Source: Bryum argenteum
Lineage: Eukaryota > Streptophyta > Bryopsida > Bryales > Bryaceae
Reading direction: 5' to 3'
NCBI GenBank assembly: GCA_037043015.1
Contig: CM073327.1
Coordinates: forward strand, 9,902,727 to 9,966,726
DNA length: 64,000 nucleotides
Position numbers and translations under genes: made by a program. The notes below the pieces were generated by a model. It ran no database searches and had not been told where the DNA came from. It saw only the letters and a program-made list of their open reading frames with translations. Every line of letters starts with the position of its first letter. Within the stretch, counting starts at the first letter, position 1. Below are positions 34,979 to 63,643 of the stretch, piece after piece.

Positions 34979-35348
34979 TTGACCCTTAAACGCCCGTAAA
35001 AGCCCGAGGGGCTTTTTCCTAATAGAATATGCTTTGGAGCTCTCAATATATTCACCTTTTCATTTATATTTTGATGTCAAAGTGGTCACCTTCTTGTAAT
35101 ACATTCAAAAAGTGAAATATTACAATTCAAAACACAATTTGGACGAGCGATTTTGTGCTTTGAAAGATTTGTGGTAGGTAGGTTGGGGTTGTACATAACC
35201 TTGTAGGAGGTTGCAAGCTCATCATTGATTGGTTCATTCATGATGCCCAAGTTCAAAAAGTGCACTATTCATGATGCCCAAGTCCAAAAGATGTTGTGAT
35301 CGAGTTTCGGGCTGCCCGTTTCAGAACCCATGGGCGTTCAAGGGTTAA
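34979..35348. mobile_element. TTAA-bounded element, 370-base family, forward copy
   Basis: Begins TTGA-CCCTTAAACGCCCG and ends with GGGCGTTCAAGGG-TTAA. The interior (GCCCGAGGGGC near the left end; repeated GATGCCCAAGT near the right end) is shared with copies at 43549, 43912 and 44864. Non-coding. Confidence 0.8.
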
Positions 35349-35950
35349 TTAATGTGGCTTTATCTTTTCTTCAAGCCACCAATTGGACCATTTCCAGTAG
35401 ATTCTTCCACTTGCAAGAAAGTGTGCATGCTCTCACATTTAGTGTTATGGTTTGACAATAGGTATTGTAACATTATGGTAACATGTGACATTTTAGTGTT
35501 ATTGTTCGCAAATTTAACGTTTGTAACAGAATCGTAGTGAAAGCCAATTTCATATGTAACGACTAAGTAAGAAGAGGACATCCATACTTTCAACGTGACC
35601 TACCAATAAGTTCAGGCAGTACAGTACCCGCTGTCAAAGAGACGCTTCAAGAGTTCAGTTTTTGAATTAGATTAAAAATTGAGGAAAAAAAAACAAGGTA
35701 CTAAATGTTGGAAAAACATTAAATAAGGTCGCTGAAAGTTAGAAATAAATAAAGAAGGTCGCTGAATGTTTGAAAAAATCAAATACAGAAATAAAAACTA
35801 AGATAAAGTAAAATAAAAAATAATAAAGTGGATTCCGAATTGATTATACCTGTATGATTAAATAGGTCCACCTGTAACACAGAAAATTTGTTGTGTTCTT
35901 CTGAATTTAAAGCCGGATCTCCTTACAATATTAAAGACTTAGCATGGATA

Positions 35951-36887
35951 TTAACCCCTAAACGACCATGGTGTTTTGAGAGCTCCAAACTCCAAAACTG
36001 CGATTTCATACCACCTTGTAAACTTTGGTGTATGAGAATTTTTTTCACAATATTTTGAAACTATTAACCGTAGGATCTTAAAAATAACTATCATGAGCAA
36101 TAGTGTTTAAAATTTCAACCGTTGGATCTTTTCCATTTCTAAGATCGTAACATTCAAAGTTGATGCAAACTTTTTTTTAGCAGACATAGTCTACTTTGTG
36201 CAAACAATATTGTGATGCTTAATACCTCAAACATCTTGCTTATGTTTTTTTCCATGTAGGTAACTAAGTTGAGCATTACCATGCAAAATTTTAGACACTC
36301 ATTTGGTTTTTTGAACCTTCATGCAATTTAATTACTAGAAGAAGGTAGAAATCAAGGATTCGGTAAAACATGCACCACATTTGTCGTATTTGGTTTAGGG
36401 GGAAAATGAATGGTGAGTAGGTGCCTTCATGAGTTTGTGAATTTTGAGAAAAATGAAATTCAAAAAATTCCTAAATCTCAAATTTTAGCAAATTTCGAAA
36501 GAAAAAATTGTAATATTACAGAAACTTTGGATCTAGTTCTTGTAGTTTTTTGAAGGGTGCCCTTGTAGAATTAGTAAAAGTTTTGACTTGGGTCACTTGG
36601 AAACGTAAGTAGGAAATCAGTCAAGAAAAGAAATTTTTAAAAAAAATCTCAATAAAAAGTTAAAAATAAAAAGTTTTTTTCTGCCCGCCCCAAAGCTGAA
36701 AACAAAAATTTGTGTTTTAAGACTCCAAAAGTGGAGTTTGACTTTGCAATTTTTCCCATGTACACCTTGTAGTATAGGAAACATCCAATAAAAATCTTAG
36801 GAAAAAATATTGATTCTAACACCTTCATCTAGGCTGCCCGAAATAGCAAAACAGCCAAATTGGAGGCCTTGGTCGTTTAGGGGTTAA
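35951..36887. mobile_element. TTAA-bounded non-autonomous DNA element, 937 bases
   Basis: Ends are TTAA-CCCCTAAACGACCA and TGGTCGTTTAGGGG-TTAA, a perfect 14-base inverted terminus outside which the flanks differ. The interior shares its left portion with the 34365 element and its right portion with 34790-34950. No open frame resembles a transposase. Confidence 0.85.
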
Positions 36888-37010
36888 AGTTCTACCAACT
36901 AATTTGAACATAGAGTCAAATCTACATCCAACATGTAAACCATAAGTGGGCAATTTGTTGAAGAACAACATTTTGGATGATAAGCAGCAACTTTGAAGAG
37001 CCATGATTAT

Positions 37011-37090
37011 TTGACTCTTAAACGCCCAACCCCTCTGAAAATACACTAAAAAGCAAGCCCGAGGGGCATGCTTGGGCGTTTAAGGGTTAA
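37011..37090. mobile_element. 80-base TTAA-bounded mini-element
   Basis: Runs from TTGA-CTCTTAAACGCCCA to TGGGCGTTTAAGGG-TTAA, with a central GCCCGAGGGGC as in the 370-base family. It looks like an internally deleted derivative. Confidence 0.6.
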
Positions 37091-37129
37091 GTCTAAGATT
37101 GTTTTGGACGAAATCACTCAGGTTAGGTT

Positions 37130-37875
37130 CCATATCAAGTCTAGTTTGTGTGGTAAAAATTACATTCCCATCCAAGAAAGTACAAATTTATGGCATGCAT
37201 TTTATTGAGGCAGCTTTGGTAGTTAGGTTTTCGAACCTAGGGTGACCAACTACGAGGATGTTTACCTTTAACTCAATAAAACCTCGAACAAAAATAAGGC
37301 ATGAGGATTTATTCTTTGCGCAAGTAGGGGCGTTGCAAAGGGTGAAAACTGCCTTTAAAATGTCCAAATTAGGCCCCTTGAACAAGTACTAATGCCATAG
37401 CTTTCACACATCTCGGATGGAAATTAGGTTTCTTCCACAAAATTTAGATTCAAATCGGTATCTAACCCACCAATTCAAATCAAAATCCAAAGGTGGATGA
37501 ATGAGAAACTTCTTCTCAAAACCATGTATTTATTTCAACTTTTTCAAGATGGTTTCTGAGTTTTCAAACATGGGGCGATACAAGCCAGATATGTGAAATC
37601 CACTGTAATTTTTCATGGACTTTTTATTACATAAGTATGATCTTGAGAAGAAAACTCGCAACTTTGTAGTTGGAAGATTTCTGATTTGGATATCTGATTT
37701 GCAACAATTTTTGGATTAGTGACTGAAAATAGACTTATCTATGAGATCTTACAGGTGAAAGTCCAAAATGAGTTAGAAGATTTAGTTCACGCTCCCTGAA
37801 GTGCATAGAGGTAGAAAATTGCACTTTTGAGGTTTCAAGCTCCAAAACACACAAGGAAATTTAGGGGTTACAACA
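37130..37875. repeat. Decayed pieces of TTAA elements
   Basis: 37130-37390 repeats the inner part of the 38092 element (GGCATGCATTTTATTGAGGC block). 37790-37875 is a right end (AAGGAAATTTAGGGG then TTAC), inverted relative to the left part of the 34365 element. Boundaries are unclear. Confidence 0.5.
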
Positions 37876-38091
37876 ATGATCTTTTTTTGACTCACTATCA
37901 AATCTGAGAACATTTTTCCATTGACACGTAACTTATTTAGTAACCATCAAGCTCAATTTCGTGCAGGAAGCTATTGTTAAGTATGAGATTCTATTCGGTT
38001 TAGAGTATGAGACTTCAAAGAAGTTTAAAGTCGAGAGTATTCACAAACGTGAAAGTACTTACTTGGAAAGTATGCTACTTGTACAAATATC

Positions 38092-39071
38092 TTAACCCTT
38101 AAACGCCCACGATGTCGAAAAACGACATTTTGGATGTACATTAGAAACTTTGAAGAGCCATATCTTCTTCATCCGAGATCCGTTTTGGATGAAATCACTT
38201 GGGTTGGGTTCCAAATCAAGTCTAGTTTGTGCTGTAAAATTTTCAAGCGCATACAATAAAGTATGAATTAATGGAATGCACTTTAGTGAAGACAACTCTT
38301 GTTTTTGGGTTTCCAAGCATGGGGCATATATTACCATTGCAAGCCAATTATGTGAAATTAAAAATAGTTTTTCATGTTTTTTTTTTTCATGGTCATGATC
38401 TTAAGGTGATTCTTAACAACTTTGTAGTGAGAAGTTTTTTGATCCAAATGATTTTGCTATTGGATTTGCAATGATGTTTTGTCAACAGAAAAAGTGAGAA
38501 AATGGATGATATTTGAGGAGCTATATCTCCCTCATCCACCGTTGGATTTCAACTTAATTTTTTGGGATGGCCTCCAATTAGAGTCTAGTCTAAGTGGTAG
38601 AAACCTTAACAAGATCGAAGATGTTTTGAAGATAAGGCATGAAATTGAATGCAAAGGGTCTAGTTTTGGACTATTTTTCCTTTGTAAAATGTTCGGTAGA
38701 TTTACCACTGCATGGCTTTTATTTGAGCTAAGAAATTTTTTTGATGAATTTTTGTTGGGTAAAGGACTTATTAAGATGAAGGTGAACATCTTTCTAGTTG
38801 GTGATTTTTTCATTGCAATAGGTATATTGGTAGCATTTCCACCTCAAAGTGAAAATGATGGAATTTTGTAGTTCATTTTTGATATTAATATGTCACGATC
38901 TCCCAATCTATAAGGCCTCATGACTCAAATTTTGGTCCACATGATCTTCGATAAGTCTATTACAAGTTTGTACGGTTGAGATCTTAATAGCTTCTCTTGA
39001 TTTTCATCTATGACAATTTCTATGGAAATGTGCTTTTCTGCTAAAAATAGGCTTGGGCGTTTAGGGGTTAA
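38092..39071. mobile_element. TTAA-bounded non-autonomous DNA element, 980 bases
   Basis: Ends are TTAA-CCCTTAAACGCCCACG and GCTTGGGCGTTTAGGGG-TTAA. Flanking bases outside TTAA differ. Pieces of its interior recur at 5950-6080, 22680-22830, 37130-37390, 47390-47530, 49120-49230 and 63370-63520. It contains a 130-codon frame (38479-38871) that matches no transposase and is likely fortuitous. Confidence 0.85.
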
Positions 39072-40238
39072 AGAATCTGAGTGATGAGAAAATTGTCAAA
39101 GATATTGCACTAACACCTATCCTTCTTACGAATTCTTCAATCAAACTTTGTGAGATTTTAAATATTGAGTATGTTGGAACTTATATGTGAAATGGTGTAC
39201 AAAACATTTTGCAATGACCACCAAATTCTATTGAACTCAATTCTATAGAGAACGTGTAGAAGCAATTTAATACAAAGAAATAAATCACAATATAAATACT
39301 TATTGCGGGCATTAGCCAATTTTGCATAATTAGGAGGTTGTATCTCAAGGAATTATTCATTTGAGAACTTGAATTCTACAACACTGAACCAAATGGAACC
39401 ATAATAGCAGTTCAAGGTGGTAGAACTTGGTGGTAGTAGGTGCTTTACTTTAACATTGAATACGAATAGTTGCAAATTAATGAGTAAGACAAATAATAAC
39501 TTCATATCATGTTGGGCTTCTACATTGCTCTAGCTTCGAGATGGTACCTTCTTTGACTATGTTAATCACATATAAATTTAATAGATGAGTTTGATTGACC
39601 TTGATCTAGAATTGAACAAAAGGAAATTGTAAATATACATTACAGCTACATTGTGGAAAAATTTAATACAAAAGTGCAACTCTGTAATACTAAAGATTTG
39701 AACAATGATATTACGTATATATTGGTGCAATGGACTTTTACAAAATCACCAAATTATATGTCTCAATTACGTTTTGTAAAAATAAACAACAAATACTCCA
39801 GTCAACCGGTTGAAGTATGACAGCCAGTTCTGACCATAAACAGAGAAGATCTTCATGATTTTACACAATTTGCATGGTAGATAGCATATACGATACGGTG
39901 CAATTCACTGCCAAGAAGTCATGAACACAGGATATTCTTGCCAGTCAAATCTTCAAAAGCAGATTGGAAGCTTGGATGCTTCAGAGAAAGTTAAATCAGC
40001 AGTGGATATAGCCAAATCCTGCGAAGTCTCCTGAAACCTCGTTTACATTACTGGAAACACAGTGATTATTCAAGCCCATGTGAGCACTGCTCATCCGCTA
40101 CAAATGTATGGAGGGTTCCCAAAACAAGCCAAAAACAATGTACTAAGTTACAAGTCAGCATTACAAAACCCACACTCCTTATCTACTCAAAAACTAATAT
40201 CTACATTGTGTCATGTCTGTTCGAACACACAGGTTTCT
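39072..40238. other. AT-rich intergenic DNA and 3' flank of HIR
   Basis: No gene or clear element end. The part nearest 40238 should hold the 3' untranslated region of the minus-strand HIR gene. Confidence 0.45.
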
Positions 40239-41760
40239 TCAATGGGCATGGGGCCTGCTGCTGCCAGCATCACCCTGCAACAATCCATTCCTGATCTGAT
40301 CAGCCACATCACGGGCACCACCCACTCCGTGAGGAATGAAGACCGTAGAATTCTTGGAATGAGAGCCGATATCCCTCATGGTGTCGAAGTATTGAGTCAC
40401 CAACACCATGTCCATGACTTCCTTCGGTGATGTCCCGGGAACATTGTCGGAGAAGGCCAACACGCTCTCCCTCAGACCATCCACAATTGCTTGCCTTTGA
40501 CGTGCAATACCAACTCCTGACAAGTACTTGGATTCGGCCTCCGCCTCTGCCCGTTTCACTTGCAATATCTTCTCTCCTTCTGCCTTCTCGAGCGTTGCGA
40601 GCCTCATTCGTGCAGCTGAATTTCACGAGCAAGCAAACAAGTTATTACCGACTGCATAGGCCAATCGGAGCCTCCTTCTGAATAAACATCTCCCAGAATG
40701 AACTCAGCTTGTCCTACTTAGTAACTGCAAACTAAAGTCACGATGGCGGCAACATTCTTGTTTCACACTCTCGATTCATACCTGCATTGATTTCGTTCAT
40801 AGCACGCTTTACAGTTTCGTCTGGCTCGATATCAACGATAAGAGTTTGGACGATCTCATATCCGTATGTCCTCATTGCCTGCAAAGTGTTCGAGAGGAAC
40901 ATATTATTCATGCTGCTTTAGAAATCAACCTGTTAGCGGATACAAAATCATAATACTCTACATAGTCGTTCACCGACTTCTAGAATCTGTATTCAATTCT
41001 TTGAGAAGCATATCAAGAAATGTGATGGACTGACTGTCTTCTATGTACTTCAGCTTTGTAAACCATGTTAGGAATGCGACGCTTGTGGCATGCTGGATAA
41101 ACGACTGAATAAGTAAGCTTATTGAGATTATTTGTTTTGCGCGTAAGTACCTTCTCTAGTTCTTCCTTCACGCTGTTGGCAATCTCATTTTTCTGCTCAA
41201 AGACGTCGTCCAGACACATCAAGGGGACGCTGGCTCTCACGACTGTCATCACATGATCAAGTGCGGTCAGTCACTTCCGGTCCCACAACACGAGATTCTT
41301 GCACTTCGCAAAGATATGACAGTCACGATTATCAAATAAAAATGCTACATTCTCTTACCATCAAACACGTATGCCTTAATCTGCTCCCGGGGGTTCGTCA
41401 GCTTGTAGAAAGCATCTTCAGCTGTCTCGACGTGAGCACGATATTGGACGGAGGCAACGACAGTCACGAACACATTGTCCTGAAATACAACACCACCCAA
41501 ACACATCGTATAAGAATCTTACTAACTTGCATCGAACCAAGACATGGCTTGGGGAGTAGCATGACATGTACCTTCGTCTTCGTTTCGCAACGAACATCAA
41601 GCTGCTGCACACGAAGAGATAAGATGCCAGCAATGTTTACTCCAACGCACCAAGGTACGCAATGGCATCCAGGGCCCACAACATCCACAAACCGTCCCCA
41701 CTTCTCCTTCACAGCAACCGTGGACTGATCCACCTGAATAAGTCCAATCGAATTTCCCAT
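40239..41760 (-). CDS. HIR1: Hypersensitive-induced response protein (SPFH/band 7 domain)
   Basis: HIR proteins are membrane-microdomain scaffold proteins of the SPFH (stomatin/prohibitin/flotillin) family, linked in plants to immune signalling and hypersensitive cell death. Five exons on the minus strand are 41760-41572, 41479-41359, 41242-41151, 40878-40782 and 40615-40239. They keep phase and give 291 aa, the usual length. The start MGNSIG provides Gly2 for N-myristoylation, and a short Cys-rich stretch ([10 protein letters not shown]) is typical of plant HIRs. The band-7 domain includes [22 protein letters not shown] and [21 protein letters not shown]. An Ala/Glu-rich coiled coil ([23 protein letters not shown]) leads to the conserved [17 protein letters not shown] and [19 protein letters not shown]. 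Upstream DNA to about 42350 probably holds a spliced 5' leader. Confidence 0.96.
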
Positions 41761-42640
41761 CTTTACCGACTCTTAAACCCCTGCATTCCACAAGAAGAAA
41801 CGTCAGAACAAACAAACCTGACTAGCGGAATCAACAAGAAAAAACACAATCCATCATATCAAAGCGTACACCGCAACGGTACCATAGATACACAACTCTA
41901 GCAACAATTCGCCTACCGAAAAGAATGACAATCAAGAAAATTCACTCTCCTTGAACCCAACTCATCCGTAAATCCAAACGGGCAACTAAGAGCAGTAAGT
42001 CAAAACAAAACTGAAACCGGCACACGTAAAATCCATAGATCTTGCCACAAATTAAAAAGACACCGTTAAAAAGAACGTCACCGCAATTTTCTAAAGAACA
42101 AGAAATTTCAATCTGAGCCTTAAACCCTAGGATTTCAAAGCAAACGAATTCAAAGAGATCATGCTCCAAGCACGCAAATCTCAGTTCCAAGGAGCAATCG
42201 GAAACTGCAAAACAATCGCTCATCAAACCTGATCAACCGACTTCGAGATTACCAAGAAACAAACAAAAGCGGCAATGTCTGTTTGATGAATCGAATACAA
42301 ACCCGAGAGAAGGAGTTGTGAAAAACCTGTTTTATCGATGCAGAATTGGGAAACTTGCGGGACAAGCGAATTGTTGGTGAAAAGATGGGGAGACCGCAAA
42401 TCGAATATATACTACCGTAGAAGCAATGGAGTCGGAGCCTCCCTGGAAGTGGGCTTCCTTGGCGCTTCAACGCGGTGCTTCTTGATCGGACGGCTGACAG
42501 CGGGCCACCATCCTGATCTAACGGTGGTCCGTAGTCAGCCACGTCGAGTAAGGTGCTGTTATACAGCCTGTCAGTCAATTTCCTGGCAATTCAGTCGGTA
42601 GAATTTTGCCGACGAAGTGAATACCGAAAATGTCGGCAAT
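41761..42640 (-). other. Probable 5' leader and promoter of HIR
   Basis: Noncoding DNA before the HIR ATG. Acceptor-like TTTCTTGTGGAATGCAG (minus strand) just upstream of the ATG suggests an intron in the 5' leader. The exact leader cannot be fixed without transcripts. Confidence 0.4.
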
Positions 42641-42708
42641 GAAATGTGCAGTAGGTGGTTGGAAATTTGTTAAGGGCAAGCTTTGGGCTCCGGGACGGAG
42701 AATTAGTG

Positions 42709-42977
42709 TTAACCCCTAAATTTCCTTGTTGCGAAACGGTCTAAGTCACAAAATTTGACTTTCCTTTAGATTAAGCTCAGAAAATCTCAGTCTAAGCATT
42801 ATTTAGAACATTTCACCGTAAGATCTCAGAGTTCACTTGACATTCTTCTCACATTCCAAATTTGAACCGTTCATTCTTCCTCATTTTTGATATTATAATG
42901 GTCAATTTTTGGCTGAGTTTTCTCTTGCAGGAACCTTGAGACCCCGTTTTGGGTTTTGAAGGAAAGTTAGGGGTTAA
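42709..42977. mobile_element. TTAA-bounded element, 269 bases
   Basis: Ends are TTAA-CCCCTAAATTTCCTT and AAGGAAAGTTAGGGG-TTAA, inverted with one mismatch over 15 bases. The same terminus occurs alone at 31005-31018 and about 37858-37870. Non-coding MITE-like element. Confidence 0.82.
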
Positions 42978-43548
42978 GGATTACGAATAATTTTAAGTTT
43001 ATTCTTTTTATTGAGTGTGGATAGAATCTTTCTTGGAATATTGATGTTGAACTGTTAATTAATTTTGGATGAATTATGTTAACTAGAATCTAGTCACTAC
43101 AAGAGTTGTTAATTAGTGTTACATACGTTAATTGTGAACTGTAAGAGTAATCATCACATGTCATCATAGAGATACAACAGTAATTCGTCAAACCAGAACT
43201 CAAAAAGTTAGAGCAGGCGAACTTTCGTGCAAGTGGAAGAATCTATTGCAACTCGTGCAATTGTTGGCTTCAGTTGTATAAAAAGCAATGGACATTGATT
43301 GGAGTGGTGGCCCAAAGTGAACACTAATTTCAAGAGAGTTGAGAAATAGTGTTCTTTACCAAAACTTACCCATTACACTAATCTCCGTGTAACACTAATT
43401 AACAACTCTTGTGTACTAGTGCCCAAGAGATGACGAACTATATTATACAGGTCTTCAAAGAGCTCTGATACTACCTTTACAGCGAGGCTAGGAACCTACA
43501 AGATAATTCAAGAAATGAACCATTCCCACGTAAGGAAGTTTGGCCCTC
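42978..43548. other. AT-rich intergenic DNA
   Basis: No gene is seen. 43300-43430 resembles, in inverse orientation, sequence at 34270-34370 around GTTGTTAATTAGTG and CTATTTCTCAAC, so it is part of an older repeat next to TTAA elements. Confidence 0.4.
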
Positions 43549-43915
43549 TTAACCCTTAAAGGTCCATCTACTCCTCAATGGGCAGCCCGAAATTGGATCT
43601 CAACATCTTTTGGACTTGGGCAACATGAATAGTGTACTTTTTGAACTTGGGCAGCATGAATGAACCAATCAATGATGAGTTTGCAACCTCCTACAAGGAT
43701 TTGTGCAATCCCAAACTACCTACCACAATCCTTTCAAAGCACAAATCACTCATACAAATTGCGATTTGAATTGTAGGATTTCACTTTCAGTTGTAGATGC
43801 ATCACAAAAAGGTAACCAGAATGATATAAAAAAATAAGTGAAAAATTGAGAATCAAAAGAGCTACAGGCAAGATTCTTTTGGAAAACAGCCCGAGGGGCT
43901 GACAGGCGCCTTTAA
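43549..43915. mobile_element. TTAA-bounded element, 370-base family, reverse copy
   Basis: Begins TTAA-CCCTTAAAGGTCC and is an inverted relative of the elements at 34979 and 43912 (GGGCAGCCCGAAATT near the left; AGCCCGAGGGGCT near the right). Its right end meets the next element at one shared TTAA (43912-43915). Confidence 0.78.
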
Positions 43916-44280
43916 CCCTTAAACGTCTAAGGTGACCCGAGGGGTCACCCTCCAACAGAATCTTCTCTGTAGCTCTCAATGTACTCAAATTTTCACTTAT
44001 ATTTTGATGTCAAACTGGTCACCTTCTTCTGATGCATTCAAAAAGTGAAATTTTAGAATTCAAATCACAATTTGTATAAGTGATTTTGTGCTTTGAAAGG
44101 ATTGTAGTAGGTAGGTTGGGGTTGTACAATACTTGTAGGAGGTTGCAAGCTCATCATTGATTGGATCATTCATGATGCCCACGTTCAAAAAGTGCACTAT
44201 TCATGATGCCCAAGTCCAAAAGATGCTGTGATCCAATACCGGGCTGCCCAAATCCGTATAGCGTGACGTTTAAGGGTTAA
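43912..44280. mobile_element. TTAA-bounded element, 370-base family, forward copy
   Basis: 369 bases from TTAA-CCCTTAAACGTC to GACGTTTAAGGG-TTAA, a perfect 12-base inverted terminus. It is nearly collinear with the 34979 copy and lies head-to-head with the 43549 copy. Confidence 0.88.
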
Positions 44281-44863
44281 GTCTCATCAACAACTCAACT
44301 TTTCATGTAATAAAAGCTTCACACAAAGTGGAACAAGTTCCTTAGGAGTAACTTTAGTTTGGAAAGTTGATATGATGGGCAATGTAAAAGCACGATGAGA
44401 AAGTGTAGTGGAGATAAGTTGCTCAAGTACGCCACATAGCTGTAGATAGACATGAAGTACTACTTCCTCGCACTTCTAATGTGATTGTACTGAGTGCGGA
44501 GATCCTGTTACTGCAGAAAGTAGCATGAAATGCATAAACGCAGCAAAGCAGCAGCTCCTCACGAAGCATTTGTGAAAGCACCCCACTGCTTAAAAGTGAC
44601 TGAATTCCCTCTTTCGGAAGCGGTAGGAAAATACTTGGCCAAGAGTCAAAAGGCATTTGTCAAAGCACCCATCTGATTGTGTCCGAACGTGACCCGGGCA
44701 TGGATCACATTGCGAGACAGTCGGGAGAAAACTTGGACAAGATCGGGAGGCGATCGGATGGAAGTTTCAAAGAACCTGGAGCTTCAGTGGACTTTCATTG
44801 GATCATACGGTATTATACCGTAAGTATGCAGTACAGGAACTCCAGTGTAGAGTATTACGAAGT
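44281..44863. other. Intergenic DNA between TTAA elements
   Basis: No gene recognised. A short direct repeat (GCATTTGTGAAAGCACCCC and a close copy) occurs at about 44565-44585 and 44651-44671. Confidence 0.4.
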
Positions 44864-45764
44864 TGACCCTTAGGAAGCCCGAGGGGCTCGTCTCCAACAG
44901 AATATGCTCTGTAGCTCTCACTGTACTCAACTTTTCACTTATATTTTTATGTTAAACTAAGGTATACAGACCCAAAACCGACAGGCGACCAATAACCGAT
45001 CTAGCCCAATTCCTAGATTTTGAAAGGACAGATGTACCTCATTTGTATATTTGAGCATGAGGTCGGTTTTAGGTCACAAGCAACTTTTCACTTCAAACAA
45101 TTATAACTATTCGAATAATGCAAATAAAATCACGAAACTTTTTGCATTCAACAAGAACCTTATGTTTGCACACATGAAAAATTCTAAAAAATATATATAC
45201 CTTAATATCATGTGCTAAAATCCTTAAGTTGTCGGTTATAGGTCTGTCTACCTTAGTCACCTTCTTATGGTGCATCCAGAAAGTGAATTTTTTTCAATTT
45301 GAATCGCAATTTGTGTGAGTGATTTTGAGCTTGTGATAGGTAAGTTGGGGTTTTACAGATGGGTGACATTCAAATTGGCGTTTTGGTGATTCTAGAGATA
45401 GTGTCCTATGTACAACTTTGACACACTCCATAGGGCTGGAAAATTGTTAGTTTCCCATGATTCTTTGGGGACAACATTATCTTTATGGTGAAAAATGTGT
45501 GTACCAAATCTTAAGTCCAGAAGATTTATACAAAAAAAGATATGCAAGATTTACCAACATGCATGGGGTAGCTGTGAGAAAAGTTTCATAACTACCACAC
45601 AAAAAAGCATATTCCTTACAAGTAGGAGGTTGCAAGCTCATCATTGATTGATTCATTCGTGTTGCCCAAGTTCAAAAAGTGCACTATTCATGATGCCCAA
45701 GTCCAAAAAATGTTGTGAACCAATTTTAGGTGTTCGTTTCAGACACCATGCGTTTAAGGGTTAA
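44864..45764. mobile_element. TTAA-family element interrupted by other insertions
   Basis: A copy of the 370-base family starting TTGA-CCCTTAGGAAGCCCGAGG and ending CGTTTAAGGG-TTAA. It is split by a 294-base MITE at 44960 and by a second block of about 270 bases (roughly 45350-45620) of unknown origin, which the other copies lack. Confidence 0.75.
44960..45253. mobile_element. TA-flanked MITE nested in the TTAA element
   Basis: 294 bases with about 24-base inverted ends (AGGTATACAGACCCAAAACC on the left; AGGTAGACAGACCTATAACC as the complement of the right). TA flanks both sides (44958-44959 and 45254-45255). Comparison with the uninterrupted 370-base copies shows the empty site. TA duplication suggests Tc1/mariner-type mobilisation. 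Confidence 0.88.
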
Positions 45765-49545: not shown

Positions 49546-49779
49546 ATGGCGATGGCGACGGCGATGGCGGTGTCTTGCACCAGTCTCAGAGTAGAATGTA
49601 CAACCACCAGTTCCAGTTTCCCCCTCCGCCGCCGAGCTGCAAGGCTTGGCTCCTGTGCTAGTGGCGCATTGCCACTAGGATTGGTGGCATCGCGGCAGCA
49701 GCAGACAGCATCCAGGCGACGGACTTTCGTTCTTTCCACTCGGTGCGAGGCTTCCGAGAACGGGGAGGCTCCAGAAAAG
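49546..49779 (+). CDS. Orphan first exon of a DUF3007 (DAC-like) chloroplast protein
   Basis: A 78-codon exon opening MAMATAMAVSC, rich in Ser, Thr, Arg and Ala and poor in acidic residues, as expected of a chloroplast transit peptide. It ends [12 protein letters not shown] directly before GTGCAG. The last bases of the exon and about 105 bases of the following intron (49744-49885 overall) match 60108-60251 with two mismatches. The exon therefore belongs to the same gene type as the DUF3007 exons at 60557-61147. No DUF3007 exons follow it within 7 kb. It either splices over about 10.8 kb, across the whole pyrophosphatase gene, to 60557, or is a cut-off relic. Read straight into the intron the frame stops after nine more codons. 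Upstream sequence shows no other exon. Confidence 0.75.
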
Positions 49780-52500
49780 GTGCAGTATCACCAACATTGC
49801 TCCAATTAAGCTTCAATTGTATCCAGTTTCACTTGTTGAATGAAACCCTAATGTTGAATTCCGAATCTCAAATTGGTGAAAGAGTAACATAAATTTGTTT
49901 CTTGCTATTTGACATCCTTCTATTTTATATGACTCTTTAAAAATGAATAAGTGGTCATTCTGTCCAAGTTTAAATTCCTCAAACTTTAGAGTATATTCAC
50001 ATTTATAAATTACGCTTGAACTTGTAAAAATATTTGTAACTTTACTTCAATTTTACTTTTTTTGAACTTATGATTACAAGATTTGTAATATAAATATATG
50101 TAAAATATATAGCAATGTCATATGTTGACGATTGTTTAAATTTCCCAGGTTTTCTACAATTATCATCATTTATATTATTTATTTTCACTAGTTTTTTGAG
50201 CATACACACTTTTTATACGAGAATCATCTTTATATAGCATGTCACAAGTTCTAGCACGTTGCAATAAACAAAAGAAGTGTAGATGTAGTAAATGTAAATT
50301 TAGCTATGAAGAAGACGGATTTAAATTTGTTACTTATAAAACTCCACGACGACATCATAAACAAGACGTTGAACGACATACGGTTTCTCAACATATACCA
50401 AATGTAGGACGTGAAATTGAAATTTCTGAACAAACGATCAAATTTCAATTCCGCCTCTACTACTTTTAAATCGTTTGTATGTTTATATAATAGGGAGAAC
50501 TCTATACAACCTGAAAAATAAAGGATGTATTTAGGTACTCAGGATTATTCACACTAGCCTTTTATTTTTCTATTTGTAGCATATTTAACTATCTTAGCAG
50601 TTGTAACCAACTTTCAAGTTCAATGATCTCTCAAACTCTTTCCCATAGAATGCTAACAATTTTAAAAATTCAAAGAAGTACGTATACTTCTTCAGTCTAT
50701 TTTAAATATTTGACATTAGAAAAAAATAAAACAATATCATAACTTTTGGAATTTAAAGATATAATGAAAACTTCCAACCATACTTACCAACTCAAGATGT
50801 CTACGACCATATTCAGCTTTTCAAAAAGAATGCAAAACACTTCAGAATACAAATAATCATAAATCTGAAATCAATTCATATAGATTCAAATGCAAATCTT
50901 GTAAAAGATTAGTAGTAGCTTACATAAAACCTTTGATCTTAACTGTCTACTCGATTGGATACCAAGTCTCCTCCGAGAAACAACGTGGAGCTTAGGTTAT
51001 GGAATGGGTATGAAATTTAACGTACTCAGTGCAGACACAACCTCAACTTTATCATTATTGCCTGTATTATTCATTTCTTTAGGTGAAAATTTTCCGTACG
51101 TTGTGAAACGCATGAAGAGTAATTTTTATGCCTTTAAAACCTTTTTTGTTGAACAACTAGAAGTTTTTTTTTTTTTTATGAATGCTAAGTTTTTTTTTAG
51201 CAACCTTTAATCCCTATTTAAAACGGTTAATCAAACGCAATCTTTATATTTATGAGTGGTGACTATGTTGATATTCTCAAATCAAATAATTACGTAAGAA
51301 AAATATAAAAATGAACACGAAGCAATAAACAATATTTGAATTACAAAAATTGAAAAATGTTTATTCAAATAAAAGACAAGTGTGAATTTTGTGCTACTTA
51401 TACAATACTAAAATTTTATAATCTGAAATCTAGTATTATACTAGAGCAACCTCTAATACAAATATTAGTAGTAATTTTTGAAAATAATTATGAAAATTAA
51501 AAATAGGTTAACAAGTTTTATAGTTGAATAATTACTTATATAATAGCTAACCCAAATGGCAAGGACTAGTAAATATAATACAAATTTATCCGAAACAAAC
51601 TACAAAATTAGTGCAAACAAATAATTTCCAATCTATACAATTCCGCTCACACAATTAAAAATTTATGAACCTATTATTGAGTTAAAATTTTAGACAAATC
51701 CAATTACCAAAGAATTTGAATTCTCACCTAAGTCAAGTAAAAAAAATTGTTTACAATTGGAAGACTAATGCCTATTCAAGAACGAATCTTGCAAACAAAA
51801 AATTAATAATCTAAAAATATTATCAAAAAAAATCAATAAATGATATTCAAGTATGACATGATTATTGTCGTATATTGTCACAAATTAGTGTATACTAAAT
51901 TAAATGGTTCATTTACTATTTATGAACCAGTTATTTTAAGCTATAGTAAAGTTTCTACTATCCTCCTCTTTTATTATTTTTCTTTACGTTTTTAATTTTC
52001 AAGTTTGCGATATTCAAGTAATGTTTGTAAATTTTCTTTATTTTTCCATAATTGACAATACCGATATGACTCTTGAACATATCGTAAAATTTAAGAATGT
52101 CTTCACTAAAACAATGAGTTAATTTTGTTGATCAAGAGATTACTTGAATTTATTCTCAAACTTTGTGGAATGAAAAAATTACAAAGAAAGTTTAAAAGAA
52201 GCATTTAAAATTTTTGAATAAGAAAAAAAAAAACCACAAATGTCTTTCAAATTTTATCATATCATTTTACTTGATTAAAATTTACATGATATCATTTATT
52301 TGTATGTTTACACATACTTAAATATAAGAGAGTTGGTGAGTGTATAAGTATTTCATAATTTTGTAAAATGAATCAGTGCGCCATCTTTGTCAAATTACTT
52401 GTATTTGAGTTTGAAAAAAAATATTAACATCGAATGTCGAAGACGCTTATATTTCGATGTCAGAGAATCATCCTGATGGTTGTAATAATTGATGAACACG
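49780..52500. other. Very AT-rich block downstream of the orphan exon
   Basis: The first 105 bases are the duplicated intron start. Beyond about 49.9 kb the base composition turns sharply AT-rich. A 76-codon frame at 50239-50469 has a small cysteine cluster (CNKQKKCRCSKC) and basic residues, resembling zinc-knuckle starts of some transposon proteins, but I cannot assign it. No other gene was recognised. Confidence 0.45.
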
Positions 52501-55500
52501 TAAGTAAATCAGGTTAGAGAAGCGGAAGTGAAAATGATATAAATTGAAGTAGAATGACGATATCGCACTCTTCATTGTTCAATGTATTTTTGGGCGATTA
52601 TATTGGAGACAATTTGATTTATGTCCGCTTATTCATATAGTGTTGAATTAGTGTTGACTGTGTTGACGCAGTAAACAACATTTTAAAAAAATTTAATGAC
52701 GCTGTGTGTAAGTGTAACTATGCATACGGTTTGGGATTGTAGGAAAATGCTAACTGCATCTGGTCCAATTGAAAGCGATGGAGGCGTTAAACGAATGACA
52801 ATGAGAAATGCGAATGCAAGATACGAAAGAGGATCCGGACGAGTTTCGCGTAATATGTCTTATTAGATATCTTCTGCACCATCTGTACATGGATGGATGC
52901 CTTCCAATCGCATGCAAAGTGACGATCTCATTAATCCGAACACGGGAGTAAAATGGAAGGAAGATGTCGGCGCGGAAAGCGCTAATAGGCGGTCGACTTA
53001 GGCGTTTAAGTGTATCCGTGGGATGGAGAAGTTTGATTTGACCAGAACGCGTCGCAAATAACAGCGTGGTTTAGAGATTAACGGTGAAAACTGCTCCAAC
53101 GCCGGAGAATGGAGAACAAGTTAACCGCCCAAAGTTTACGTTGAGTCGAATAGACCGCGGAACAAATCTCACATCTTGTATGAAAGAGTGGGTGACGAAG
53201 AAAAGCGCTCTTTCTCGCTATCTTTGGGTAGATAATGACGTAAATCGGAGGGCTGTGAAGCTTCAAGAGACGGAGACGGGTTTTATTTCCGCACACACGG
53301 ACGGACGAAGTAATCGGAGCGATAATAAGATCTACCATGAAGTTAAGAGAAATAGTAGTGACACGAAGCGCTTGAGCAGAGAGCCTCCATTTTGTTTTTA
53401 ACGGAGATCGGTCGTGTGCGAAAGAAGAAACATGTCTTCTAAGCCCATCGTTAGAGACTTCAGATCTTGCCATCTTGAGAAAATCTCAGAAATTCAGGAA
53501 ATTTTCGAAGATTATTTAAGGGGATAACCAAGATGAATGGAGTAAAGTATCTTATGAAGATTGGCAAGCCAAACTGTCGAAGGCATTCATCATCGGACGT
53601 GACATTTTAGACTTCCGTCCTATCGACGAATTCCAGGAAAAGGAGGATTCGAGTTTGATGCAATAAGTGGGCGTAGTTAGAAATTCATGTTGGACGTGCT
53701 GCTGAAGCCCGCAGATGTGTTACATCCTCCACCACATTGGTTGTTGATCTGACACTATAACAAATCTAAGGAAGTGGAGCGCGCGTTCTTAGCGTCTATG
53801 TAGAAGTATACAAAGCGAAATTTGAAATCTCATGATTAAGAAGGCAGAAGTGACCAATAAACTTACGGAATACGGAAAAAATTTCAGCGAATTCAAAGAG
53901 ACGATTCTTATAGATGATGAAATGATTGACTCGTTGAAATCTCAGCTTGTTGCAATAGCTGCTTCATTTCATGAAGTGAATCGAAGACACAATTGAAGTT
54001 GTAAAATATGGTGTCGAAAAAATTGAAAATTAAAGGATGATCTTTGCGGAAAAAAAAAGAAAAAAAAAAGTTGCGCCTTTCCAAGTTTTTTGGCATTTTA
54101 CTGGATCTTCTTTTGAGTCTTCTTTTCCTACAAGATAAGCGTCATTTTTAACGGATTAAGTAGGAAGAATCGACGGCCGTTTTTTCGTCATTAGGGATTC
54201 AAAGATTAGCGAAGACAACAAAATGGGAAGATCTCTTCTTCATTTTATTTACATTCTTGCAATTTTTTTATATGATTTAGTGTTTTGGAATCTTTAGTAG
54301 TCTTAACAATGAAATGGTAACGTAATTGTCAACAAAAACTTTTCTAAAGGGCGATGTCGTTTGATTGAGTCTTGGCTTAAATAAGTTGTCTTTGCATTTG
54401 ATAATTTTGGTTTGGTTCTTGAATTTGGGCAGTGAAGAGAATGCGCGGAAGAATTTGCTTGGAATCTGGCCTTGATTGATTTTTGCGTTAGTTTGTATTT
54501 GTGATAATTGGTAGGGTGCGTGTTTGTATAGGAATCAAATTTGCGTGTATGTTTGAATATCTTGGGCAAGTCTAGATTTAAATTGCATATTATATACGTG
54601 GAGTTGATTGTTCCATTGATTGATTGATAAACAATTTGTGTCACACCATCGTCCGACCCAATCTTTTTTTTTTATTTTCTTGTAAGAAGAATTCGGTGTC
54701 GCATTAAGAAGAAAAATAATAAGGATGAGAGTAGATCTAACAACTTTAAAGCTCCAAAACGAAGCGCATTGCAAAAGATGAGTGTATTTTAGTTAAATGA
54801 GGATGAGCGGCGTTTGAAAGCTTAGAGAAAGCGAGAAAAATACGCTTTATGAAGTTCTGGGCGTGTTATGAATCTTATCTTGTTCTTCTAATTCCACATA
54901 CTTCCTCTCTCTTGCCTCAACTATCGCTCGTTGTTGTTGTTTTAAAAAAATGAAACCATGTCTTTGCGTTAGTATAGATTTGCCAAAAAAAATTCGGTGA
55001 CGAGAAAAAAATATTTGTCCAATTTTGGCGTCCTTCGTCGAAGCTTCCTTTACCTTCTTCAATTCAAGATACCTCTATAAAATTACCTTTTTCTTTTATC
55101 CCGTCTCCACAATCTAAAAATCCAAAAAATTCTACATCCTTTCTATAAACTCGGTTTTATGCGTGGTAACAAAACATTTTTTTGAAAATATTATTGTTCG
55201 GAATGAAGGTAATCTTGAAACCTCCCAAATTTCACTTCAGCTAGAGACAATTTTTGAAAAATGTAAAGAGTTAAATTGTGATGCCGTAAAACAACGTGTC
55301 TACACTTTCAGATATTTGCGCGGGTATTACATTCTTGATGGGATGACTAAACTCAAAGAGTTAGCAACTGGGCCTACGTGGAGTACGTCCAACGTATCAT
55401 GTTCCGGGGGCAAAGAAACAAATCTAACAACTCAGTTTAAGATGTCTGAAGTCGGCAATGGTAGCCGTGTTGACCTCGTCGACCGAATCTACAAGGGCAA

Positions 55501-55520
55501 CCTCCAAAACTTTTAATACG
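52500..55520. other. Less AT-rich island of unidentified, decayed coding-like DNA
   Basis: Within the AT-rich block this stretch has clearly more G and C and several protein-like reading stretches on both strands (52740-53050, 53084-53473, 53430-53670, 54847-55062). They are broken and match no family I know. It could be an old transposon or virus-like insertion, or a relic of a host gene. It appears broken in several places and no repeats at its ends were found. Confidence 0.35.
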
Positions 55521-56727
55521 AATCTTCACAATGTCCAAAAAGTTTGGAAGATAAACTTTGGATGTTATGATATCTCAAATGGTAAACATCCAATGGTCAA
55601 TTTTTCAATCGGTCACTAAAATCTACTTAATAATATTTGATCATATTGATTGTTTTTTTTCTAAATTCTTAGAACATAGCATTTAGATCACCATTTAAAA
55701 CTTGATATGCTTTGTATTGCACACATCATTTTAACTCATATACTCTTCGAAAACGGTCCAAAATCATCATATTCACTTATCAAACCAAACACTCAAAATT
55801 TATTGACATATCACTAACACTTGTAATATTTACCTACACTTATTTGAATTTTCTTATTATACTACAGGTAGTAATTTCATACCATTGAAAATGTCTTACA
55901 TCTAGATAACTGACTAATTTCTCAAGGTATTGTTAGAGATTGATTTGATTGTTGTTGACTTATTGTGTAATGTTGAACGTCTCAAAAAAAAAAATTAAAA
56001 AAATTAAAAAAGTAATGTATATATATAATTATTAGTTTTATTTTATTTTATATGACATGATCTAATGCATCAAAACATAAGTTCATTCTTGAAGTTTTTT
56101 AAGTAACTTGTGAAATCATGTATGTTGTACATGGTTAAACCAATTTTCTTGCAAGTGTCATGTACAAGCTTATTTTGATTCAATTGAGGCAAATTATTTT
56201 AAAGTGAATAGGATTTATTATAGGATAAATCTCATAAAAAACATGTAAGTATACGCAATTTTAACATTTAATTTACAACTAAGATACACTTGTAGAAATT
56301 TTAGGCTACAACTATACACATCAAATGTTTTCAATTACAACTAGTAGATATCAATTTTACCGTAGGAATGGATATTGTATTTTCATGGTCATATGAACTA
56401 TTATTAAAAGAGCCTCTTTATGTATTAAAAGTGCATAAGTGATTTGATGTACAAAGATGTCAAGATACTTAAGGATCAAACATGTTGAAAAAGTTGAAGG
56501 TGTAAACATAGACTACTTTATCTTGAGATAATAAACAATTGAATTTCCATATTGATAAAAGTATCTAATCATCTTTGTTAAACAAATTGAAATTGTCAAT
56601 CTTATGAGTAAACATTTCATTGAAGTCATCAATTTTCTCAAAACTTCAACCAAAACTCCATTCATAAACACGTGAAGATGCAAAATTTGTAGATTAGGTT
56701 ACAACAAGTACATTTCAATCTTCTTCT

Positions 56728-56772
<45 letters not shown>

Positions 56773-57240
56773 ACAAATTCCTTTAGCTTACAACAAGTAA
56801 ATGTATCAACAACAACAATTAAAGTACTCATGATAAAGAAGTATCAACAAGCATAATACACATAACAAGTATGATATGATAATAACTACAATTACAATTC
56901 AAAAGATATTCATTTCAGTTGCATCTTCCACTGAAAATACCTAACATGTTGGACACCAAAATTTGAAGACAAACAAATAATCAAATATCAACCTAAAAAT
57001 ATGATTATTTTGTAAATAGAACATACAAATCATCACAATTACAATTTTAGTATACAACTTATTTGAAATGTATTTTGTCATAGAAAAGGAAATCATGATT
57101 TTTGAATAAGCAACCAAGTTTATTCAAGTAGAAGAAAAAATTTCAATTCTTTTTGTGAAAAAAATTAAACTTCTTCATTCACTAGAATGTATGAGTTGGC
57201 ATAAAAGAATCAGGGTATCATACCCCTCAGAAACGAACGG
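55520..57240. other. AT-rich DNA with long poly(T) tract
   Basis: No gene is seen. A poly(T) run of about 39 bases lies at 56729-56767. The sequence up to about 57240 is strongly AT-rich and then changes abruptly to the GC-richer PPase promoter and leader. Confidence 0.5.
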
Positions 57241-57631: not shown

Positions 57632-60175
57632 ATGGCGGCCGCAAGGGCAATGGTAGCAGGCTGCGTGTCGCATTTGCCACAATGCGTGGGTTCGACGGTC
57701 GCATTGGCGTCCTCGAGCGTCAGGGCTGCACCTTTGCGTCAGAGATCCTTCTTGAGGTTGTCTGTTCCGTCGGTGCAGCAGAGCCGGAGAGTGCAGAGCT
57801 CCAGGGTTGTGGCTGCGGAATATTCTACCTCGGAGGAGGGCGATGCCAATTCCCTTGAGTACCGGATGTTCATCTCGGACAAGTCCGGCAAGACGGTGAG
57901 CTCACCATTTCTAGGTTTACTCATCGCTAGGGTTTGGTCAATGTAGCTCAATTCCTCACCGTTCTTGCTCAAATTTCTGTCACTTGAACCCTCGCATTGT
58001 ATGTGAATTGGTGATAATTTACTTATCCTTTGTGCTGGCTCATGACTACACAACCTACTAGCGTGGAAGTGCACACAGAACGAACTCATTTTTGACACAT
58101 ATAGCCCGTAGCTTATTGTCCTTTACCGAATGTGATATCGAAATCAGTTTAATACATTTTATCGCACATTAGGTGCAGTATCTTGAGCTTGGACAACGAT
58201 GTAGTCAACTGATCGTTTGTTGTTATGGAGTTACAGGTGTCGCCATGGCACGATATCCCACTCCACGCAGGAGATGGACTCTACAACTTCGTAGTGGAGA
58301 TTCCGAAGGAGACGAGTGCTAAGATGGAAGTGGCCACGAATGAGCCCAACACGCCAATCAAGCAGGATACTAAGAAGGGAAAGCTTCGTTTCTACCCGTA
58401 AGTGTCCAATTTTAGCTCTGAGCTTTGTATGTGAGGAGTTGGCAATAAGCTTATGTAGCATTCTTACATCGTGTGCTTGTTCAGCTACAACATCAACTGG
58501 AACTATGGACTCCTTCCCCAGACATGGGAGGACCCTTCTCACTCCAACAGTGATGTGGAGAACTGTTTCGGTGATAATGACCCAGGTATGTGCTATTTGC
58601 GGCTTTACTTTCAATCCACTAACCAATCAATCAAGTTCTTTCTTGATTCATTAATGCTGTTACGTCACGTTTTTCATGAAAAGTACACCGTTTACAATCA
58701 TACTTTCAACTTGTCTTTGTTGTTGGTAAATTGATTCATAATGTGTGAAATGTCATAGCATTGGTAGTGCGGGGAAATTTTCGTATCGCAATAATGGAAT
58801 TTCCACATGGTTCATTCTGTAGTTTCTGAAGAGGTTTTGGTAGCTTGATCCTTGCTAAGTGTTGGTATGTACAGTAATGTGAATGGTCAAAAGGCAGATT
58901 CAGGGAATGGTCATTACAGGAGTAGTATACATAGAAACTACTGGTGGTTCTGTTGTTCCTCTATTTCCTCACGAGTCTTCTAGTGTGCAGTATTTGACTG
59001 AGGTGTCTGTACGTGTGGCAGTGGACGTTGTCGAGATTGGAGAGAGGCAAGCTAAGATGGGTGAGGTCCTGAAGGTGAAGCCTCTAGCAGTTTTGGCTAT
59101 GATTGACGAGGGTGAGCTGGACTGGAAGGTTGTGGCCATCTCCGTGGATGATCCTAAGGCTGATCTGGTCAACAATGTGGCTGATGTTGAGAAGCACTTC
59201 CCAGTAAGACTTCAGTCTGCTCTACTTGGAATCTGAGCATACCTCATCTACTGACGTTATAGCATCGACTTGAATCATGATGCCTTGTGTTTTGATATAC
59301 GTGACTAGATGTACCAACTTCCAATCGATTTGAAGTATCACAATAGCTTTCTTTGCTTAGTGAACTTAAGCCTTGCATGGGGAGTCTTACACCTTTTTTT
59401 CTTTTGGTGCTTATCTGCAGGGAACGTTGACAGCAATCAGAGACTGGTTCAGGGATTACAAGATCCCAGATGGCAAGCCTGCCAACAGGTTCGGACTTGA
59501 TAACAAGCCCGCCGACAAGGTAATATATTCGTGTTGATCTCTATTGGCTAAAAAAGACATCTTACTTTGTGCCCTTCTTTTTCTCATGAGAATTAGGGTC
59601 TCGTGTTTAGAATGCTTGGATTACCTCATGATTTATCAAGCGGTTTGCTAAATTTCGATTCACTTTGTGGCTTTCTTGTTTCATTCCGCTTTGATACTAT
59701 CTGAATCATCCCAGTTCATGTTCTAAAGGCCTCCATTTCGATGAATGTTAAAATCTTCGTGATTGGATTGTTAATAGTTATGTACTTTAGAAAACCGTAC
59801 TAATGAATGATGCAAGGCAATTTTTGTTCCTTAATAACTCTTATATGGCTTGTGAGGGGTTAACAACCTGTCTGTATGTTTTTTGTGTTGCAGGAGTATA
59901 CACTGAAGGTTATTGAAGAAACCAACGAAGCATGGGCAAAGCTGCTGAAGAGGTCCGTCCCAGCTGGAGAACTCTCCGAGAACGGCGAGGCTTCCGAGAA
60001 CGGCGAGGCTTCCGAGAACGGCGAGGCTTCCGAGAACGGCGAGGCTTCCGAGAACGGCGAGGCTTCCGAGAACGGCGAGGCTTCCGAGAACGGCGAGGCT
60101 TCCGAGAACGGCGAGGCTTCCGAGAACGGCGAGGCTCCAGAAAAGGTGCAGTATCGCCAACATTGCTCCAATTAA
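57632..60175 (+). CDS. PPA6: Soluble inorganic pyrophosphatase, chloroplast type (family I), fused or extended at the C-terminus
   Basis: Hydrolyses pyrophosphate to phosphate in the plastid stroma, pulling biosynthetic reactions forward. Exons are 57632-57895, 58237-58397, 58485-58585, 59022-59203, 59421-59519 and 59894-60145, and phase closes. Residues 1-60 or so are a transit peptide ([14 protein letters not shown], rich in Ser, Arg and Val). Family I landmarks are VSPWHDIPL (from 89), [12 protein letters not shown] (109-120), [19 protein letters not shown], the metal-binding signature DNDPVDV (172-178), DEGELDWK and [25 protein letters not shown]. Plant homologues end shortly after AGELS or a similar run. 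Here the frame instead enters eight perfect ENGEAS repeats, then ENGEAPEK, and reaches a GT donor at 60146. Splicing to 60557 makes a 465-aa fusion with DUF3007. If the intron is kept, nine more codons lead to the stop at 60173-60175. The ATG was preferred over an upstream in-frame TTG. Confidence 0.93.
59978..60136 (+). repeat. 18-base minisatellite coding (ENGEAS)n
   Basis: Eight perfect copies of GAGAACGGCGAGGCTTCC (59978-60121) and a ninth partial copy (60122-60136) lie in frame in the last PPase exon. The orphan exon at 49.7 kb carries just one such unit, so the array looks like a recent expansion of the DUF3007 exon 1 tail. Confidence 0.97.
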
Positions 60176-60556
60176 GCTTCAATTGTATCCAGTTTCACTT
60201 GTTGAATGAAACCCTAATGTTGAATTCCGAATCTCAAATTGGTGAAAGAGTTTGTTTCTAGGGCACAATGAGAACAAGGATACTTAATTGCTATTTAATT
60301 ACTTTTTTTTTGGTGTGACTGAACTACTATTTGAGAATTACTGTATCGGTCACTGGAGCTATATGTAGTTCACTTCTTGATTTGTAGTGTTTTAGGGTGT
60401 ATACTCTGACTACTTCTCATTTGATCAGAGTTTTAAATTTTACTTCAGAGAGCTTATTGTTGAAGTTTTTAAATGTCGGTTTCTGCTTTAGAAGATTTCA
60501 AGGATGGTCTGTTTGATTCTTATTGTTCATGCTTCGTTTCCTTCTTTGTGGGGCAG

Positions 60557-61147
60557 ATTCCGTTTGGTTACACTAGGAAGGATGTGATACTCATCGGAGT
60601 GGGCATCACCGCTTTGGGCGTTGGTCTTAAGTACGGTTTGGAGGTACTGTACTCTCTCTTTTCTTCAAGCTATTTCCCTCATCTGTTGCTTATCATGAAT
60701 CAAAGCGGGTGTTGAATTGCTACGTTGTGGTCATGTATGTTGCAGGCGTTCGGCGTGGATTCACTGAAAGCTGGCAACGTTGTGCAAATCACAATGGTAG
60801 CTGGTCTCACAATCGGTTGGATCGCCAGTTATGTCTTCCGAGTTTCAAATAAGGACATGACATACGCCAAACAGTTGAAAGACTACGAGAATAAAGTGAT
60901 GGAGGTAAGTTGCAAATTCCTTGCTGGCATCAGAGTTATAATCTTGTCAAATGCAATGCATTACCAGTTTCATTGCATGTGGTATGGAATGAAGCAAGAA
61001 GAGGGAGTTCGTTGTTTAGTAATGGAACCTTTTGGGGTTGGTTTGGATGTTTAGAAACGGCTGGAGGAGCTTCCTGAGGCAGAGCTTGAATCGATGCTGG
61101 CTCAAGTGGAGGAGGAGAAGATTCGATTAGAGCAACGACGGAGATAG
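60557..61147 (+). CDS. DUF3007 / DAC-like thylakoid membrane protein, shared 3' exons
   Basis: Three exons (60557-60643, 60746-60904, 61055-61147) encode 112 aa ending in EEEKIRLEQRRR. The block IPFGYTRKDVILIGVGITALG, the second helix VVQITMVAGLTIGWIASYVF, and FRVSNKDMTYAKQLKDYENKVMEKRLEELPEAELE are characteristic of the DUF3007 family, conserved from cyanobacteria to plants. From memory, the Arabidopsis member At3g17930 (DAC) is needed to accumulate the cytochrome b6f complex. Two membrane helices are predicted. There is no start codon or transit peptide immediately upstream. The first exon opens in phase 0 and matches exactly the phase left by both the PPase exon (60145) and the orphan exon (49779). 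It must therefore be reached by splicing from one or both. Confidence 0.9.
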
Positions 61148-63512: not shown

Positions 63513-63643
63513 AAATTAATATTAGTTCTTCATGAATATGTTTCAAATATATAGGATCTTAAGGTGGGTTCTAATAAATTATTAGAACCCATCTTAAGAT
63601 CCTATATATTTGAAACATATTCATGAAGAACTAATATTAATTT
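63513..63643. repeat. 131-base near-perfect palindrome
   Basis: Two 65-base arms (63513-63577 and 63579-63643) are inverted copies with a single mismatch, separated by one base. The left arm continues the 980-base TTAA-element sequence (it keeps AAGGTG as in 38.4 kb), so the right arm is the inverted copy. Confidence 0.92.

Follow-up and report, generated by a model that had tools for sequence, protein, structure and literature searches.

A Putative Young In-Frame Fusion of a Chloroplast Pyrophosphatase Gene with DUF3007 Exons in Bryum argenteum

The PPase-DUF3007 Locus

A 64,000-nucleotide stretch of the Bryum argenteum genome (assembly GCA_037043015.1, contig CM073327.1, positions 9,902,727 to 9,966,726 of the forward strand; hereafter the 64-kb window, in whose own numbering all positions are given) contains at 57632–61147 a gene in which a chloroplast-type pyrophosphatase (PPase) is continued in frame into the exons of a membrane protein of the DUF3007 family. 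The gene model comprises nine exons with GT-AG borders, which after joining give 1398 nt, that is, 465 amino acids and a stop codon with no internal stop. This single open frame, reported in the initial annotation of the stretch, carries both PF00719 and a complete PF11460 domain, so that at the DNA level the PPase-DUF3007 fusion is solid. The exons and the elements directly connected with them are as follows.

57632..57895, + strand: exon 1, transit-peptide-like leader of PPase and start of the mature enzyme
58237..58397, + strand: exon 2 of PPase, with a phase-0 acceptor
58485..58585, + strand: exon 3 of PPase, placed by exon joining
59022..59203, + strand: exon 4 of PPase, placed by exon joining
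59421..59519, + strand: exon 5 of PPase, placed by exon joining
59894..60145, + strand: exon 6, end of the PPase (KRSVPAGEL), open through the repeat array and PEK up to the donor
59975..60136, + strand: linker array, nine perfect 18-bp units TCCGAGAACGGCGAGGCT, each read as SENGEA, followed by PEK and the donor
60146..60175, + strand: tail read through if the donor is unused, VQYRQHCSN and then TAA
60557..60643, + strand: exon 7, where the conserved DUF3007 core begins (IPFGYTRKDVILIG...)
60746..60904, + strand: exon 8, second DUF3007 helix and first part of the C-terminal helices, assigned from the cyanobacterial model described below
61055..61147, + strand: exon 9, C-terminal part of DUF3007 and stop

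At the end of its conserved domain the PPase has, as had been claimed, no stop of its own, the first one being TAA at 60173–60175, 9 codons past the donor. The fusion donor at 60146 and the acceptor ending at 60556 form a GT-AG pair that joins phase 0 to phase 0, in agreement with the initial annotation, and the 411-bp intron between them (60146–60556) is of ordinary length for the gene, all eight introns of which measure 87–436 bp. On this basis a transcript joining 60145 to 60557 is likely. The acidic linker had been described as (ENGEAS)8; its repetitive nature is borne out, but the array consists of nine perfect SENGEA units. The linker sequence was not found in open-licence papers. Computation gives 44.7 kDa after subtraction of the first 61 residues (an assumed cleavage site), in keeping with the value near 45 kDa that the initial annotation expected for the mature protein.

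The Pyrophosphatase and DUF3007 Domains

In the Pfam search of the 465-aa product PF00719 (Pyrophosphatase) covers residues 106–283 with an E value of 6.6e-41 and 140.1 bits against a cut-off of 23.5, profile positions 1–152 of 153 being matched, while three further families score below their cut-offs. The PPase part also matches eukaryotic family I enzymes of solved structure with E values down to 1.1e-74, and in the alignment with a solved relative 116 of 223 positions are identical. When compared with yeast PPase, in what we take to be the yeast numbering of the 15 residues checked, 14 active-site positions are kept and the sole differing one, Y89, is replaced by Ile in a gapped loop. The first 61 residues resemble a transit peptide in composition only (S+T+A 36%, 8 R/K, and no D/E). 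In its leader, family I fold, and 14 of 15 active-site positions the enzyme resembles the plastid PPase of PPA6 type (At5g09650), of which it is presumably the orthologue, but unlike this type it has no stop at the domain end and continues into the repeat linker and DUF3007. No second PPase gene copy was found by blastn in the window, to which this and the other copy searches were confined.

PF11460 (DUF3007) covers residues 359–454 with an E value of 1.7e-33 and 115.1 bits against a cut-off of 25, profile positions 2–96 of 96, and thus both domains are complete in Pfam terms. Two hydropathy peaks are present in this part, with 19-residue windows starting at 362–364 and 391–397. The NCBIfam search of it returned only a chance-level match to KwaA (E 0.16, under the cut-off). 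Five weak matches of the DUF3007 profile to solved structures, none of which passes alone and the best of which is a 29-residue stretch of Pumilio (E 5.8e-4), were taken as chance. No second DUF3007 copy is present in the window by blastn or, for the DUF3007 part, by tblastn.

Arabidopsis DAC is presumably a member of the same DUF3007 family as CPLD38. CPLD38 is described as the Chlamydomonas DUF3007 protein (PMC8448359), and both CPLD38 and DAC are reported to affect cytochrome b6f accumulation by an undefined mechanism (PMC9279372). The window locus is similar to CPLD38 and DAC in having a complete DUF3007 domain and, further upstream, a still intact stand-alone first exon; it differs from them in that DUF3007 exons 2–4 lie nearest to the PPase exons and share their donor, so that the expected default product is one with PPase at its N terminus.

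Comparison with Cyanobacterial DUF3007

A degenerate DNA motif pattern based on a conserved stretch was applied to a bacterial genome collection and gave 55 stretches, all of which belong to cyanobacterial records by record name or genus. All 55 match DUF3007 by tblastn and contain the same 96-position domain with 39–52% identity to that of the window. The core residues G32, G39, Q43, W54, Y58, R61, and K83 are identical in every member; M67, T68, Y69, Q72, L73, D75, Y76, E77, and V80 are identical as well, but they lie in the stretch required by the pattern and are not independent observations. When the plant DUF3007 sequence alone was used against bacterial genomes, 39 pattern matches were obtained and none was confirmed by tblastn.

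The cyanobacterial proteins are stand-alone, in contrast to the window fusion. Counted along the exon-7 sequence, MRRI or MRKI stands near residue 5 in 54 of the 55 loci, the remaining one (L048) having RRID without M; the start codons are our reading, and some of the frames are open further upstream. Since these starts coincide with exon 7, the conserved protein appears to begin with this exon, whatever stands upstream being a replaceable leader or extension. Beside DUF3007 no PPase match was found at any of the 55 loci (1.6–8 kb each; tblastn E up to 0.01 with a plant-type PPase query and no positive control). DUF3007 was present in 62 of 146 cyanobacterial genomes, in open frames of 98–188 aa, and gave no match in the other 84; frames of such lengths have no room for a PPase in addition. 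The PPase frames of nine of nine searched cyanobacterial genomes are 175–266 aa. The initial annotation knew of no such fusion, and the PPase-DUF3007 pair was indeed found neither in these cyanobacterial genome searches nor in open-licence papers, on which grounds the domain pair is provisionally regarded as new.

The structure model of cyanobacterial DUF3007, for which 43 of the 55 sequences were used (mean pLDDT 78.9, pTM 0.48), contains helices 3–26 and 31–59, mostly of high confidence, followed by two shorter helices of lower confidence. The hydropathy peaks of the window protein fall in the place matching the two long modelled helices. Such a hairpin fits an arrangement in which the DUF3007 N terminus and the C-terminal helices are on the same side of the membrane, which would be the stromal one.

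The Direct Repeat and the Stranded Exon

The end of exon 6 is part of a direct repeat, whose other copy lies more than 10 kb upstream, across the donor of an exon that belongs neither to the PPase part nor to the nine-exon model.

49546..49779, + strand: stranded exon, ATG after in-frame stops, 78 codons, phase-0 donor AAG/gtgcag
49745..49885, + strand: upstream repeat copy, last 35 bp of the stranded exon and 106 bp of intron start
49886..57199, strand not assigned: AT-rich left part of a segment of about 10.3 kb, from the stranded exon to the PPase gene
60111..60251, + strand: downstream repeat copy, spanning the end of exon 6 and the intron start

The two copies (49745–49885 and 60111–60251) are 141 bp long and identical at 139 of 141 positions (98.6%; blastn E 2.65e-67 within the window), and a 9-bp match extends the repeat past a 9-bp gap. 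This pair is far beyond chance, and both domain matches described above are highly significant. Apart from it, the only repeats given by within-window blastn were those of the array and dispersed ones that are short or AT-rich.

The stranded exon is intact and transit-peptide-like in composition (S+T+A 42%, 10 R/K, and 1 D/E in the first 66 residues); its donor is identical to that of exon 6, and the beginning of its intron is near-identical. Because an unbroken 191-aa DUF3007 protein, leader included, results when it is joined to 60557–61147, the exon at 49546–49779 is in all probability the first exon that DUF3007 originally had, now left 10.8 kb upstream. The claim that the DUF3007 exons have neither a start nor a transit peptide of their own was therefore not upheld as worded. 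The site 49779 had been named as an alternative partner of these exons; what had been missed is the intact in-phase exon that it ends, the 141-bp repeat shared by this exon, and thereby the origin of the arrangement. There is also an in-frame ATG at 60473, 28 codons upstream of the exon-7 acceptor and open into DUF3007 (MSVSALEDFKDGLFDSYCSCFVSFFVGQ-IPFGY...; 60473–60556), from which a transcript starting in the fusion intron could yield DUF3007 without the known leader.

The simplest reading of the sequence is that the 411-bp intron 60146–60556 is the original DUF3007 intron 1 and that the PPase gene sits in a segment of about 10.3 kb within it. The PPase C terminus (GELS) runs directly into the duplicated exon end, and therefore the linker, the donor, and the intron would all derive from DUF3007. 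About 1.4 units of the array are held by the upstream exon 49546–49779, and the linker, judged from this common sequence, is an expansion and no new invention. The phase match of the fusion weighs little (1 in 3), because the donor is common to the upstream exon and one frame match at the joint is enough.

In the left part of the segment (49904–57200) the G+C content by thirds is 0.26, 0.38, and 0.28, and a run of 38 T occupies 56730–56767. No transposon domain is present among the 11 Pfam families found in 93 open reading frames (ORFs) scanned across the window, and at 141 bp the duplication exceeds the usual length of target-site duplications. A single duplicative insertion was preferred to a tandem duplication with subsequent deletions: blastn found no second copy of DUF3007, PPase, or the insert in the window, and for this reason tandem models need extra deletions.

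The two differences per 141 bp suggest that the event is about 0.4–1.4 million years old, with 95% limits of about 0.04–5 million years, at assumed rates of 5e-9 to 2e-8 substitutions per site per year; gene conversion could make the repeat look younger than the event.

Proposed Origin and Working of the Fusion

Together these features are best interpreted, with somewhat better than even confidence, as a young fusion gene formed by insertion of a PPase segment into DUF3007 intron 1 with duplication and later linker expansion, whose product would be a membrane-anchored PPase; the order of the events, the use of the splice sites, the side of the membrane, and the function are what we infer within it. 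A segment of about 10.3 kb with a chloroplast PPase gene devoid of a stop would have entered the first intron of the DUF3007 gene, and the rearrangement would have duplicated about 141 bp comprising the end of DUF3007 exon 1 and the start of the intron. By this the PPase C terminus would have been joined in frame to the duplicated exon end and the PPase gene would have acquired the DUF3007 donor, with default splicing across the original 411-bp intron into DUF3007 exons 2–4, which is to be expected because this intron is an ordinary one. A short acidic sequence EASENGEA would later have expanded to nine units and become a flexible linker, while the old transit-peptide exon of DUF3007 would have stayed upstream, separated by the insert from its partner exons. 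The protein would be imported by means of the PPase transit peptide and, anchored in the membrane by two helices, would expose its PPase to the stroma.

It is possible that the output is mixed, with a tailed free PPase produced by polyadenylation in the intron and the fused protein produced by splicing. A further extension, on balance doubtful, is that this is a newborn bifunctional protein which brings PPase to the stromal face of the thylakoid by means of a b6f assembly factor, with the duplication, the expanding linker, and the displaced exon still visible, and that the locus may give free PPase (with the stop at 60173), the fused protein, and free DUF3007 depending on the choice of promoter, splicing, and polyadenylation.

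Recent fusion genes have been described in Oryza, where 310 are listed in four species with over 44% of them expressed (PMC9199173). Like those, the window gene would be recent and would have arisen when a duplicated or relocated parent was inserted beside another gene and existing splice sites were used; unlike what is described there, a direct repeat of 141 bp and a first exon left stranded still mark the event, and the two genes that were joined both code for chloroplast proteins. Most fusion genes come under study only when they are already old, whereas here every step in the birth of a fusion could be read and tested from the 141-bp repeat that it left as a scar, the exon cut off upstream, and the linker with its still perfect units. 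If the protein is made, this would mean that DUF3007, which acts in b6f assembly by an undefined mechanism, can carry an enzyme of about 27 kDa at its N terminus; a soluble stromal enzyme would then also be anchored at the thylakoid, and this could serve to probe the role of DUF3007.

Alternative Explanations

Several observations weigh against the fusion reading. The donor AAG/gtgcag looks by eye (unscored) weaker than most donors of the gene, and the polarity of the duplication lacks an outgroup. PPA6 is an abundant stromal protein, placed at rank 32 in the tomato stroma table of PMC10493611, and so abundant a stromal enzyme is not easily reconciled with being always joined to an assembly factor; the one-to-one stoichiometry of an obligate fusion would be odd unless further PPase copies exist. 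Finally, at the divergence of the repeat the neutral chance that no stop-making substitution has occurred is about 0.65 (0.22–0.95), a value that counts substitutions only and leaves frameshifts and splice sites outside. With so young an event and such a chance, intact frames argue only weakly for function; the open frames and GT-AG sites demonstrate a real and probably recent join, which is not to say that it is used.

The abundant free stromal enzyme would be kept if the locus consisted of two nested genes with two proteins, the PPase being polyadenylated in the 60146–60556 intron with a (SENGEA)9 tail and DUF3007 being produced from 49546–49779 spliced to 60557. This is unlikely, though it agrees with the intact, in-phase upstream exon with its identical donor and with the TAA that ends the read-through after 9 codons, since it requires an intron of 10,777 bp in a gene whose others measure 87–436 bp and the skipping of five PPase acceptors, among them the three of exons 2, 5, and 6, which are phase 0 and in frame. 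Of the polyadenylation-like words, AATAAA and AATAA are missing from the 411-bp intron, in which AATGAA and AATTAA occur once each, and this would speak against the nested arrangement; yet the 501 bp 3' of the DUF3007 stop, where the transcript is expected to end, likewise have no AATAAA or AATAA, and for this reason the scan is indecisive. Rather improbable too is a non-functional or redundant young chimera, in which the PPase part is a duplicate, an intact parental PPase and/or DUF3007 exists elsewhere, and the locus is drifting. The repeat divergence of about 0.04–5 million years would be too short for decay to be seen, but the two domains and the GT-AG borders are intact, as are 14 of the 15 PPase residues checked, and the searches described above found neither gene a second time in the window (blastn, for DUF3007 also tblastn).

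The repeat alone gives no polarity, and the 1.4 units of the upstream exon could be a contracted array if the fusion were old and the upstream exon secondary, that is, if a recent copy of the exon-6 end and intron start had landed 10 kb upstream by a leader-like sequence. This is less simple than a young fusion, because the 141-bp copy must have landed in frame beside a ready transit-peptide-like ORF with an ATG behind in-frame stops, and we regard it as very unlikely. The segment is flanked exactly by the repeats, and short reads cope badly with a perfect array of nine units, both of which would suit an assembly artefact with two loci misjoined at the 141-bp repeat or the 18-bp array; the repeat copies differ, however, at two bases and in their flanks, and by reasoning an end swap at the repeat leaves the PPase segment as a closed circle, with no simple linear misjoin to account for it, so that such an error is scarcely credible.

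Other Features of the Window

Outside the fusion locus RNA polymerase Rpb1 domains 2–5 are found in + strand ORFs at 13245–16398, which probably form one large-subunit gene, placed by eye from ORF 13245–13706 and its neighbours. A ferric reductase-like gene is represented by + strand ORFs at 27150–28728, with NAD_binding_6 in ORF 27817–28728; Ferric_reduct and FAD_binding_8 matches occur in other scanned ORFs of the window whose positions were not located, and one scanned ORF has a Brix domain match (E 6.9e-08). Dispersed direct and inverted repeats of 118–197 bp, possibly short mobile elements, are spread over 35021–45736 with copies near 35.0–35.3, 43.5–44.2, and 45.6 kb. At 63513–63643 a near-perfect inverted repeat is present, with 65-bp arms one base apart and 98% complementary.

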